NCBI RefSeq assembly: GCF_001281315.1
Contig: NZ_CP012479.1
Location: 1,674,001-1,738,000 of the forward strand
DNA length: 64,000 nt
Reading direction: 5' to 3'
Source of the DNA: Arthrobacter sp. ERGS1:01
GTDB taxonomy: Bacteria > Actinomycetota > Actinomycetes > Actinomycetales > Micrococcaceae
Under the pieces are notes generated by a model. It saw nothing but the letters and a program-made list of their open reading frames with translations. It was not told where the DNA came from and made no database searches. Shown here piece after piece: positions 60,975 through 63,530 of this stretch. The position numbers and the translations under genes were made by a program. The first letter of the stretch is position 1, and every line of letters starts with the position of its first letter.

Positions 60975-61003
60975 ACGTACAGCCCCTCCACGGGGCTGTA
61001 CGT
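60975..61003. terminator. Terminator after the exporter gene
   Basis: ACGTACAGCCCC (60975-60986) pairs perfectly with 60992-61003 over the loop TCCAC, 38 bases after the stop, followed by CGTTAACG. Confidence 0.7.
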
Positions 61004-61023: not shown

Positions 61024-61050
61024 TGAACCAAAGTGGTGCGCGTTCCGTTC
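61024..61050 (+). promoter_or_regulatory. ECF-type promoter of the lipoprotein gene
   Basis: TGAACC (61024-61029), 16 bases, CGTTC (61046-61050). The same -35 and exactly the same spacing stand before the sigma-factor operon and the DUF2231 gene. The leader to the lipoprotein ATG would be about 50 bases. Confidence 0.65.
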
Positions 61051-61106
61051 AAGGGGTGCGGTGGTTGACTGCCGCATCCCTTCGCGGCGAACGGAAGTGC
61101 ATCACC

Positions 61107-61643
61107 ATGAAAAGTCATCTCTGGAAAGTGGCGGCCACGGCCTCCCTGTCGGTCCTGGTCCTGGCCGGTTGCGGCACGGGCGCCGGCTCGGGCGGGTCCG
61201 GCACCACCCCTGCCGCCTCCGCCCCAGGCACGTCCTCGGGCCTGGGCACGGCACAATCGACGCTGGGCACCATCATCGTCAATGGTCAGGGAAAGACGGC
61301 GTACGTCTTTGACAAGGACAAGGCCGGCGCCGGGACCAGCGCCTGCACGGGGCCCTGTGCCACGCTCTGGCCCGCCATCACCTCGACCACCGCCACCCCC
61401 ACGGTCACGGGCGTCACCGGCACGGTGGGCACCATCAGCCTGCCCAACGGCACCAAGCAGGTCACGGTCGACGGGCTGCCCCTGTACACCTATGCACCCG
61501 ACGCCGCAGCCGGCGACGTGACCGGCCAGGGATACGGCGGCATCTGGTGGGTCGTGGCACCCACCGGCAAGAAGATCACCGCCGCCCCGGCACCCGCATC
61601 GTCGGCACCTGCCAGCAGCGGAAGCTACGGCCAAGGTTACTAA
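61107..61643 (+). CDS. Lipoprotein with YxxxxD-type secreted repeats (COG4315)
   Basis: A 178-residue lipoprotein. The signal peptide ends in the lipobox LVLAGC, Cys22 being lipidated; a Gly/Ser/Thr/Ala linker follows. The globular part contains two copies of the secreted repeat: AYVFDKDKAG ... CTGPCATLWPA near residue 64 and LYTYAPDAAAGDVTGQG near residue 130, ending GGIWWVV. The repeat family is widespread in actinobacteria and of unknown function. It stands beside the ECF sigma locus and has a matching promoter. Confidence 0.82.
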   Translation: MKSHLWKVAATASLSVLVLAGCGTGAGSGGSGTTPAASAPGTSSGLGTAQSTLGTIIVNGQGKTAYVFDKDKAGAGTSACTGPCATLWPAITSTTATPTVTGVTGTVGTISLPNGTKQVTVDGLPLYTYAPDAAAGDVTGQGYGGIWWVVAPTGKKITAAPAPASSAPASSGSYGQGY

Positions 61644-61659
61644 GCGGCCCGGCTTGGAG

Positions 61660-62361
61660 CTACGGTGTGGCCGCCAAAAGGGCCACACCGGAGCCCGTCC
61701 TGCGGATAATCACGCTGGCAATGTCCTGCTTCGGCACGCTCGTGGACGCCACCGGATTGACGGTCTCCCCGGGTCCGGCGCTCCAGCTGCCCACCACGGT
61801 GCTCGCGCCCGCACGGGTCACCACCACGAGTTCATAGGCCGACGGGGCGGTGTAGCCGGGTGTTCCGGCAGCCGCATAGCTGCAGCTCCAACTCAACCTG
61901 CTTCCCCACGGCTCGGCGGTCAGGGTGCCCGTGGCCTGCAATGGGCTCGACGTACCGGCGTCGGCAAAATGAAGGGCCGCTCCTGCCGCGACGGACGCCT
62001 GCGGCGGAGCCGACTGCCGGCCAAGCCCCAGGCCCGCCGCACCCATGCCGAGTCCGACGACGAGCACGGCGGCGGCCGCGAGGCCCACCCGGCGGGCCCT
62101 ACGGCGTCGTACCTTTTCGGCATAGAGGGCGTATGGTGCCGGCGGTGCCGACTCCGCCGCTGGGGCAAAGGCCTCCGCCCCCGCAGCCGACAACAAGCCT
62201 GGCAGCCCGGAAACGGCGGCCACCCTGGCCCGGCAGGACGCGCAGCCGGCCAGGTGGTCCTCGAATTCGCGCCGTTCCGCCGGCGGCAGGGCACCAAGCA
62301 CATAGGCGCCGTCCCAGAGCGCGTACGGATCCTGCGCCTCATCGGGCCTTTGACCGGTCAT
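61660..62361 (-). CDS. Anti-sigma factor with zinc-binding ZAS motif (RskA/RslA-like)
   Basis: Membrane-bound anti-sigma factor of 233 residues. The cytoplasmic N-terminus has the HxxxCxxC motif: His36, Cys40, Cys43 in HLAGCASC, which in this family binds zinc and can respond to redox change. One membrane helix covers about residues 92-114. The outer part is a RskA-like domain with GxxTVVGSWSAGPGETVNP. The ATG overlaps the sigma gene stop by 4 bases, so it is produced in step with its partner. Confidence 0.9.
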   Translation of the reverse strand: MTGQRPDEAQDPYALWDGAYVLGALPPAERREFEDHLAGCASCRARVAAVSGLPGLLSAAGAEAFAPAAESAPPAPYALYAEKVRRRRARRVGLAAAAVLVVGLGMGAAGLGLGRQSAPPQASVAAGAALHFADAGTSSPLQATGTLTAEPWGSRLSWSCSYAAAGTPGYTAPSAYELVVVTRAGASTVVGSWSAGPGETVNPVASTSVPKQDIASVIIRRTGSGVALLAATP

Positions 62362-62888
62362 GGCCTGCCCACCCCGTTCTCAGCCAGCGCGAGCTTCAAT
62401 GCCCGCAATCCGTAATGGAGGCGGGACTTCACTGTTCCCGCCGGAATGCCCAAGGCCGCGGCGATGGTGCCGGTGTCCTCGCCGCCAAAATACGCGCGCG
62501 TAATCACCGCGCGATGATCCTCCGTCAGCGTGGCCATCGCCTCCGCCACCAGCCAGGTGTCAAGGATCCTGTCCGTCTGGTCGGGGGCGGCGTTTTCGGG
62601 CAGTTCGGCCCGGGCCCGTTCCAACCGGTGGCGCGCACTGCGCCAGTCATCGATGACCAGGTTCCGCGCCACCGTGAACAACCAGGCCCGCAATGCCCCC
62701 TCCGGGCGCTGCAACACATCCTGGTGCTCCCAGGCGCGCAGCAGGGTTTCCGCCACCACGTCCTCGGCCACCGTTCCCTCGGTGGTGAGCCGGCGGACAA
62801 AGCGGGTGAGCACGGCGGCATAGTCCTCGTGCAGGGCCAACATGGCATCATGCCGCGCCGGCGCCTGGGGTCGTCCTTGCTGGTTCAC
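62358..62888 (-). CDS. ECF RNA polymerase sigma factor (SigL-like)
   Basis: Extracytoplasmic-function sigma factor of 176 residues. Region 2 covers residues about 20-90 (DYAAVLTRFVRRLTTEGTVAEDVVAETLLRAWEHQD, ALRAWLFTVARNLVIDDWRS); region 4 covers about 120-170 (LTEDHRAVITRAYFGGEDTGTIAAALGIPAGTVKSRLHYGLRAL). The start is GTG 62888, with AAAGGAGG five to six bases upstream. An autoregulatory promoter of the TGAACC-N16-CGTGT form precedes it; those hexamers match the reported SigL promoters of M. tuberculosis. Confidence 0.9.
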   Translation of the reverse strand: MNQQGRPQAPARHDAMLALHEDYAAVLTRFVRRLTTEGTVAEDVVAETLLRAWEHQDVLQRPEGALRAWLFTVARNLVIDDWRSARHRLERARAELPENAAPDQTDRILDTWLVAEAMATLTEDHRAVITRAYFGGEDTGTIAAALGIPAGTVKSRLHYGLRALKLALAENGVGRP

Positions 62889-62908
62889 ACATGCCTCCTT
62901 TGCCCTTA

Positions 62909-62935
62909 ACACGAATCACCGGGCGGAACGGTTCA
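62909..62935 (-). promoter_or_regulatory. ECF-type promoter of the sigma/anti-sigma operon
   Basis: Read on the minus strand: TGAACC (62935-62930), 16 bases, CGTGT (62913-62909). Transcription would start just before the AAAGGAGG ribosome binding site of the sigma gene. Confidence 0.7.
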
Positions 62936-62969
62936 ATCACCCTTCACGGCGCCGGGCCAGCCGTCCCAT

Positions 62970-62996
62970 TGAACCCCGCGGGCCCCCGCCCCGTAT
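62970..62996 (+). promoter_or_regulatory. ECF-type promoter of the DUF2231 gene
   Basis: TGAACC (62970-62975), 16 bases, CGTAT (62992-62996), with about 45 bases to the ATG. Divergent from the sigma promoter, with 34 bases between the two -35 boxes. Confidence 0.65.
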
Positions 62997-63041
62997 GAAG
63001 GCTATGAGACCCACCCACCCGATACTCCGGGAGTCGAAACC

Positions 63042-63530
63042 ATGACGTACGAATTTAACGGCCTGCCTCTTCACATTCTCCTCGTCCACGCCGTGGTGGT
63101 CATTGTTCCACTCACGGCGCTCTGTACGGCGGCCACCATGGTGTGGCCCATGGCGCGGCGCCGTCTGGGATTGCTGACCCCGGCCCTGGGGATCGCGTGT
63201 GTGGCGCTGGTGTTTGTCACCATGAAGGCGGGGGAGTGGCTGCTGCTGCGGGTTGCCCAGACGCCGGCCATCCTCCAACATGCCAACGACGGCCGGACCC
63301 TGCTGCCGTGGGCGTGGGCCTTGATGGGCGCGGCGATCGTCGCGTGGTTCTGGCACCGCCTGGCCATGCGCGCCCGGCTGCGGGCGCGGATCGGCCCGCG
63401 GTTTGCCGCAACCGTGGCCGTGCTTGTCACGGTGGCGGTGCTGTTGGCATGTGTTGGCATCACGGCGGACGTGGCGGTCATTGGCGAGGCAGGTTCACGG
63501 GCCGTGTGGGGCGGCCTGCTCGGGTCCTGA
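63042..63530 (+). CDS. DUF2231 family membrane protein
   Basis: A 162-residue protein with four membrane helices. DUF2231 marks are FNGLPLHILLVHAVVVIVPLTAL at the start, HANDGRTLLPWAWALM in the middle and VIGEAGSRAVWGG at the end. The family often sits near heme- or redox-related genes and has no settled function. GGGAG lies 8 bases before the ATG. A shared promoter type links it to the neighbouring ECF sigma factor. Confidence 0.82.
   Translation: MTYEFNGLPLHILLVHAVVVIVPLTALCTAATMVWPMARRRLGLLTPALGIACVALVFVTMKAGEWLLLRVAQTPAILQHANDGRTLLPWAWALMGAAIVAWFWHRLAMRARLRARIGPRFAATVAVLVTVAVLLACVGITADVAVIGEAGSRAVWGGLLGS

Follow-up and report, generated by a model that had tools for sequence, protein, structure and literature searches.

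A sigma factor locus with three promoter boxes

A 64-kb window of the genome of Arthrobacter sp. ERGS1:01 (NZ_CP012479.1, positions 1,674,001 to 1,738,000; "the window" denotes this whole stretch) contains, between 61.1 and 63.5 kb, four genes encoding a PF03640 lipoprotein, an anti-sigma factor, an extracytoplasmic function (ECF) sigma factor and a DUF2231-like membrane protein. These genes form three transcription units, each headed by the hexamer TGAACC followed after 16 bases by CGT (TGAACC-N16-CGT; Table 1). Taken as a whole, the locus is probably an autoregulated ECF regulon of the type represented by SigL and its anti-sigma factor RslA in Mycobacterium tuberculosis, comprising three transcription units, and its products may have a redox role in the envelope.

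Table 1. Genes and predicted promoters of the locus (window coordinates)
Feature	Coordinates	Strand	Remarks
Lipoprotein promoter, SigL-type	61024..61048	+	-35 TGAACC, N16, CGT
PF03640 lipoprotein gene, secreted product	61107..61643	+	PF03640 3.3e-28, two repeats
RslA-like anti-sigma factor gene	61660..62361	-	zf-HC2 PF13490 1.7e-09
SigL-type ECF sigma factor gene	62358..62888	-	likely start GTG 62888, alternative GTG 62912
Sigma/anti-sigma operon promoter, SigL-type	62911..62935	-	TGAACC, N16, CGT
DUF2231 gene promoter, SigL-type	62970..62994	+	divergent from sigma promoter
DUF2231-like 4-helix membrane protein gene	63042..63530	+	PF09990 24.3 bits, under cut-off

The three boxes had been proposed in a sequence-only reading of the window. 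An exact scan returned them at the same positions, the end coordinates given in that reading (61050, 62909 and 62996) overshooting CGT by 2. Nowhere else in the window does the exact pattern occur; shuffles of the window contained 0.57 matches on average and at least three in 3 out of 100 cases. The whole genome (4.94 Mb) contains 68 exact matches vs 21 for a reversed control pattern; 56 of the 68 fall within called genes and 12 are intergenic. The proposed genome scan for boxes upstream of starts was run at a spacing of 16 bases, and only five intergenic matches had a called start 10–250 bp downstream, three of which are the sites at this locus. A fourth (L004) probably falls within the N-terminal coding part of a conserved gene and would then match by coincidence; among 16 parsed loci of that gene (four of 20 were not parsed), three, including its own, have an exact match near the start, which in one relative occupies the same place. 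At the genome-wide rate, the probability of finding at least three boxes within 2 kb is 3.4e-6.

The distance from the end of CGT to the start codon is 58 bases for the lipoprotein gene (start codon ATG 61107), 22 bases for the sigma factor gene and 47 bases for the DUF2231 gene. For the sigma factor, GTG 62888 is the more likely start because the alternative GTG falls within the -10 box; a GGAGG lies five bases upstream of the former.

Relation to SigL and RslA

The sigma factor (a frame of 184 amino acids) scores above the cut-offs of PF04542 and PF08281/PF04545 and consists of regions 2 and 4 only. Its best match among solved structures is sigma-L of M. tuberculosis (6dv9_F, E = 3.9e-44), the next other full-length sigma factor following at 5.6e-14, and it narrowly passes NCBIfam NF007227 (PRK09645; 203 vs a cut-off of 202 bits), which we take to be the model for SigL. 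RslA is the best solved relative of the anti-sigma factor (6.5e-17), and the SigL assignment proposed beforehand thereby holds. The pairing of the sigma factor with an anti-sigma factor carrying HxxxCxxC was confirmed; the motif reads H36-C40-C43 in the translation; according to hydropathy, a single hydrophobic segment begins at about residue 92. Among homologues of the anti-sigma factor, HxxxCxxC is present in 90 of 92, the remaining two looking like fragments or miscalls, and a strongly hydrophobic segment in 85 of the 86 that are longer than 200 amino acids.

The three boxes fit a SigL promoter in having C-14 G-13 T-12 together with TGAACC, which we take to be the -35 element of SigL-dependent promoters. 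In the open-access literature searched, SigL, RslA and TGAACC were not found together. For M. tuberculosis, the published texts, cited here from excerpts, describe SigL as autoregulated (PMC10449499), its promoter as having C-14 G-13 T-12 (PMC6372665) and RslA as an anti-sigma factor with HxxxCxxC (PMC2877774), all of which resembles the present locus. The excerpts also attribute the choice of T at -12 to His54 of sigma-L and that of G at -11 to Asp60 (PMC6372665). The aligned residues of the Arthrobacter sigma factor are His55 and Arg61, and, unlike in M. tuberculosis, where G at -11 is the strongest specificity of SigL, G is present at this base only in the sigma promoter (CGTG), the other two having T and A. 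The locus also differs in its linked targets, PF03640 and DUF2231, whereas the targets named for SigL of M. tuberculosis are pks7-pks10, Rv1138c-Rv1139c and recN (excerpt of PMC13002591).

SigL and RslA are already known, as is the placement of a PF03640-type lipoprotein, SCO0930 of Streptomyces, in the SigU regulon; that SCO0930 is of the PF03640 type is our assumption, based on the NCBIfam match described here. The window lipoprotein matches the NCBIfam model SCO0930_lipo over residues 29-180 of its long open frame, with 111.5 bits; this falls short of the equivalog cut-off of 275, so the two proteins are distinct. The regulon in which PMC6295645 (excerpt) lists SCO0930 belongs to SigU, which has an anti-sigma gene and is a different sigma factor from the SigL-type one of the window. 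The link between this sigma group and the PF03640 and DUF2231 families had been called little described, which agrees with the open-access literature searched: DUF2231 was not found there in connection with a sigma factor or an extracytoplasmic function. In that literature, the term DUF2231 turned up in cysteine-database work and PF03640 in virus and repeat-protein modelling work, and mentions of SCO0930 include transcriptome studies.

The boxes accompany SigL-type sigma factors and their partner genes

For comparison, 101 loci were gathered by sigma homology only, without using the motif: 20 from genomes of relatives, the best 80 of 584 from named genomes, and the window locus. They are not all distinct (L075 and L118 are one record twice), and many are related. 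Over the 1.19 Mb that these loci comprise, the spacing between TGAACC and CGT has a single peak, with 158 pairs at 16 bases and 2-28 at each of the other spacings between 8 and 24; for 128 of the 158, a called start lies 10–260 bp downstream. A sigma gene was called in 96 loci (the five without one do not enter this count), of which 63 have the exact motif at the sigma operon. In several of the others, TGAACT-N16-CGT stands upstream instead, in some of them at -45 to -56. Among relatives, the spacer letters vary while the TGAACC and CGT boxes stay. In one genome of the same genus (G003; L049 and L062), homology to the sigma factor is divided between two frames; neighbours and boxes remain.

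When the motif was sought within 250 bp upstream of genes, with one representative per partner family, it was found for 79 of 97 genes of nine such families. Homologues of the PF03640 lipoprotein had it in 26 of 34 cases, those of DUF2231 in 13 of 17 and YceI genes in 15 of 17. All 14 genes for a thiamine pyrophosphate (TPP) enzyme had it, each in a locus of the Mycobacteriales type (L119, L120, L127, L134, L136, L156, L161, L165, L168, L170, L172, L179, L181 and L193), as did 3/7 Rieske genes. The counts for an FMN_bind lipoprotein (2/2), DoxX (1/1) and two kinds of small 4-helix membrane protein without a Pfam match (3/3 and 2/2) are circular, their representatives having been chosen for having the motif. 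Sigma genes themselves carried the motif within this distance in 46/97 cases, anti-sigma genes in 0/96, and all other genes in 1/899, the exception being a gene for 510 amino acids in L162. An earlier count, in which neighbours within 3 kb were clustered and the same 250 bp were used, yielded 24/31 for PF03640, 12/16 for DUF2231, 15/17 for YceI, 5/5 for the TPP enzyme, 3/6 for Rieske, 46/97 for sigma, 0/92 for anti-sigma and 21/929 for other genes; when inspected singly, 20 of those 21 proved to be members, overlooked by the clustering, of the same or similar small families. The expectation that the boxes are conserved in relatives upstream of the same gene families was borne out by the spacing peak and by these counts. 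Judged from this comparison of loci, it is very likely that the TGAACC-N16-CGT regulon is real and is read by this sigma group.

Sigma residue 61 and promoter base -11

The relation between sigma factor and promoter was followed in the 71 loci that have a residue in column 61 of the sigma alignment and motifs within 3.5 kb of the sigma gene, motifs inside a gene without a downstream start being excluded. Promoters facing sigma factors with Asp or Glu in this column have G at -11 in 9 of 13 cases, and those facing Gln have G or T in 32 of 35. Where the residue is Arg or Lys, as in the window, any base occurs (G in 11 of 70); five further promoters face Ala, Pro or Asn. With the loci collapsed to 40 at 75% identity, column 61 ranks first of 168 sigma columns for association with base -11, and shuffling of residues among loci yielded p = 0.0004 for these 40 and p = 0.003 for 25 loci collapsed at 65%. 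As far as alignments of sigma factors and promoters can tell, the boxes are tied to this sigma group independently of gene placement.

Targets apart from the sigma gene and co-occurrence

The sequence-only reading had suggested a self-contained unit. For the genome of the window this stood, since at E 0.001 neither PF03640 nor DUF2231 has a match outside this locus; in relatives, the motif is also found on such genes away from a SigL-type gene. Two genomes without a close SigL orthologue have a lone DUF2231 orthologue with the motif upstream (L222 and L223), and in genome G051 a PF03640 gene with the motif upstream (L208) lies 136 kb from sigL. In L208 (2680-6309), this gene stands directly upstream of copper-chaperone-like and copper-ATPase-like genes, as read from GMTCxxC motifs. 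A second ECF lineage, 35-39% identical to the window sigma factor, comes with an HxxxCxxC anti-sigma factor of its own; in L198-L202 it lies opposite PF03640 genes across paired TGAACC-N16/17-CGT boxes, one of the ten boxes being TGAACT.

These unlinked genes bear on the notion that the lipoprotein and the membrane protein are not the output of the circuit, and instead are sensor or feedback parts that influence the anti-sigma factor from the outer side of the membrane. Both genes adjoin the sigma/anti-sigma pair and share its type of promoter, and the anti-sigma factor has, besides its hydrophobic segment, a long part beyond it. However, the unlinked copies of L208, L222 and L223 retain the motif with no SigL-type gene close by, and the identity of the partners shifts between lineages while the type of anti-sigma factor is constant, which makes a sensor role unlikely.

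Co-occurrence was analyzed in 58 genomes including that of the window, a SigL orthologue being defined by E of at most 1.4e-46. PF03640 is present in 18/22 genomes with the orthologue vs 6/36 without (Fisher 1.3e-6, relatedness ignored) and, within the genus, in 13/13 vs 1/10 (Fisher 1.2e-5, relatedness again ignored). For DUF2231, a search with the window protein yielded 14/22 vs 6/36, and 9/13 vs 0/10 within the genus. Thus, the proposed co-occurrence with the sigma factor held for PF03640, and for DUF2231 when searched with the window protein, but not when searched with the Pfam model (see below).

The regulated proteins and their proposed role

The lipoprotein has a lipobox cysteine (Cys22) and matches PF03640 (Lipoprotein_15) with 97.4 bits vs a cut-off of 24.4; all 61 aligned homologues share Cys80 and Cys84, and the core of its AlphaFold model has pLDDT above 90. 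The DUF2231-like protein is likely a divergent branch of PF09990, because a number of its homologues do carry that domain. AlphaFold predicts a helical bundle for it with high confidence (pLDDT 94.0), and in 73 homologues 13 positions are invariant, including Gly7, Leu8, Pro9, His11, His16, His80, Gly148, Gly151 and Trp156, with Arg153 nearly so. The stretch Arg39-41 points to a cytoplasmic loop between helices 1 and 2, in which case the three histidines would lie at the outer face.

Elsewhere, the same membrane domain family is joined to Rieske proteins. Pfam confirmed a DUF2231-Rieske fusion in all four frames scanned (L210, L212, L215 and L219), and a C-terminal Rieske-like motif is present in long DUF2231 frames in 7 of 16 loci (L210, L212, L213, L215 and L217-L219). 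As a gene pair, a Rieske lipoprotein gene directly precedes a DUF2231 homologue in L224 (Pfam-checked). In a class-wide sample of 197 genomes, of which 74 have PF03640 and 92 have DUF2231 matches, 30 loci of each family were taken, both sets including the window locus. A gene with a Rieske motif adjoins DUF2231 in five of the 30, L272 (the same place as L224) being the only one that was Pfam-checked, and in L276 and L279 DUF2231, Rieske motif and sigma factor all run in one direction. In contrast to the fusions, the DUF2231 protein of the window stands alone, has PF03640 as its neighbor and scores under the PF09990 cut-off.

Given that Rieske, FMN-binding and YceI proteins stand in for PF03640 next to the sigma gene, electron transfer by the products is the most economical reading of these gene neighborhoods, albeit one with slightly less than an even chance of being right. 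That the products form an extracytoplasmic redox module is, likewise, proposed tentatively. In such a circuit, the membrane-anchored zinc anti-sigma factor would hold the sigma factor through its HxxxCxxC domain until the zinc-thiol site is oxidized, by analogy with RslA of M. tuberculosis, or the anti-sigma factor is otherwise inactivated. The freed sigma factor would then transcribe its own operon, the PF03640 lipoprotein gene and the DUF2231 gene from the TGAACC-N16-CGT promoters. DUF2231, or in relatives DoxX or small 4-helix proteins, would be the membrane part of the module, and PF03640, or Rieske, FMN-binding or YceI proteins instead, the extracytoplasmic part.

The same regulon could serve thiol-oxidative, metal (copper/iron) or general envelope stress, its products being protective or metal-handling without forming an electron-transfer chain. 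This is a real possibility, if a somewhat doubtful one. Excerpts of the literature report that in M. tuberculosis, Rip1 and SigL mutants show poor growth when iron is low (PMC10449499), and that Streptomyces lividans mutants in genes labelled SigL and SigL1 are more tolerant to diamide, without a significant difference toward H2O2 (PMC6295645). The invariant cysteine pair of PF03640 and the copper genes beside the motif-bearing PF03640 gene of L208 fit in as well. Yet copper genes are seen beside that one locus, the other loci not having been searched for them, and the exchange of PF03640 for Rieske, FMN-binding and YceI proteins, together with the DUF2231-Rieske fusions, points to electron carriers.

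A number of observations weigh against the regulon as proposed or against the redox role of its products. At the sigma operon, 33 of the 96 loci counted above lack the exact motif, and 18 of the 96 lack it altogether within 3.5 kb. Among the neighbors, a tenth family, ABM, has the motif upstream in 0/4 cases. In the Mycobacteriales-type loci the partner is the TPP enzyme, in which a Pfam scan found three TPP domains only and which is ill-suited as an envelope redox carrier. The DUF2231 protein itself remains, with 24.3 bits, under the PF09990 cut-off of 26.4, and a sequence search of solved structures returned no convincing relative of either it or the PF03640 protein. The Pfam model, with which part of the window protein's branch goes undetected, shows no clear link between DUF2231 and the sigma factor (10/22 genomes with vs 11/36 without). 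Other sigma columns are nearly as strongly associated with base -11 as column 61 (z 7.2 vs 7.8), so that shared ancestry contributes to this association. As to the anti-sigma factor, the zinc ligands described for RslA are His25, His50, Cys54 and Cys57, and the zinc is lost under H2O2 (excerpt of PMC2877774); unlike the other three, which are kept, His25 corresponds to Asp11 in the window protein, and Asp occupies this position in 65 of 77 parsed homologues (15 more were not parsed). Moreover, zinc motifs of membrane anti-sigma factors may be structural only (excerpt of PMC7406223). Redox control of the anti-sigma factor, which the sequence-only reading had considered possible and which is argued from its likeness to RslA, is plausible.

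The class-wide sample belongs among these points, too. The exact motif is upstream of PF03640 in 6 of 30 loci, with 3 of 30 for an opposite-strand control, and upstream of DUF2231 in 2 of 30, equal to its control (2 of 30). Because these counts are low, both families must occur elsewhere without the box; in terms of the genomes compared, the link to the box is a property of the sigma-linked and Micrococcales cases and no general trait of PF03640 or DUF2231. The low counts, and the fact that 56 of the 68 matches in the window's own genome are inside genes, are also what one would cite for the three boxes being chance or neighborhood conservation and no promoters at all. This is highly improbable in view of the peak at spacing 16, the single motif among 899 other neighbors, the association with the specificity residue and the boxes being kept while spacer letters differ.

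Most of what is known about SigL comes from M. tuberculosis, where neither its signal nor its core purpose is clear, and the comparison provides a promoter rule, an accompanying specificity residue and a short list of partner families; PF03640 and DUF2231, both without a function so far, gain a concrete hypothesis. The comparison also shows a regulator retained across lineages with its output exchanged. Extended to actinobacteria at large, SigL/RslA would be a redox monitor of the envelope or quinone pool, one promoter code driving interchangeable electron-transfer modules, a generalization that we regard as rather unlikely. Each module may then pair a membrane protein whose histidines are conserved (DUF2231 or a small 4-helix protein) with an extracytoplasmic carrier of the Rieske, FMN-binding, YceI or PF03640 kind. 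If so, PF03640 would be a so far unrecognized redox protein outside the cytoplasm that receives its electrons from DUF2231 in the membrane, the latter perhaps with a heme held by His11, His16 and His80.

Directly 3′ of the major facilitator superfamily (MFS) gene, a perfect 12-bp hairpin with a 5-base loop and no T-run (60975-61003) ends 20 bases before the -35 box of the lipoprotein promoter; it is perhaps the terminator of the MFS gene.

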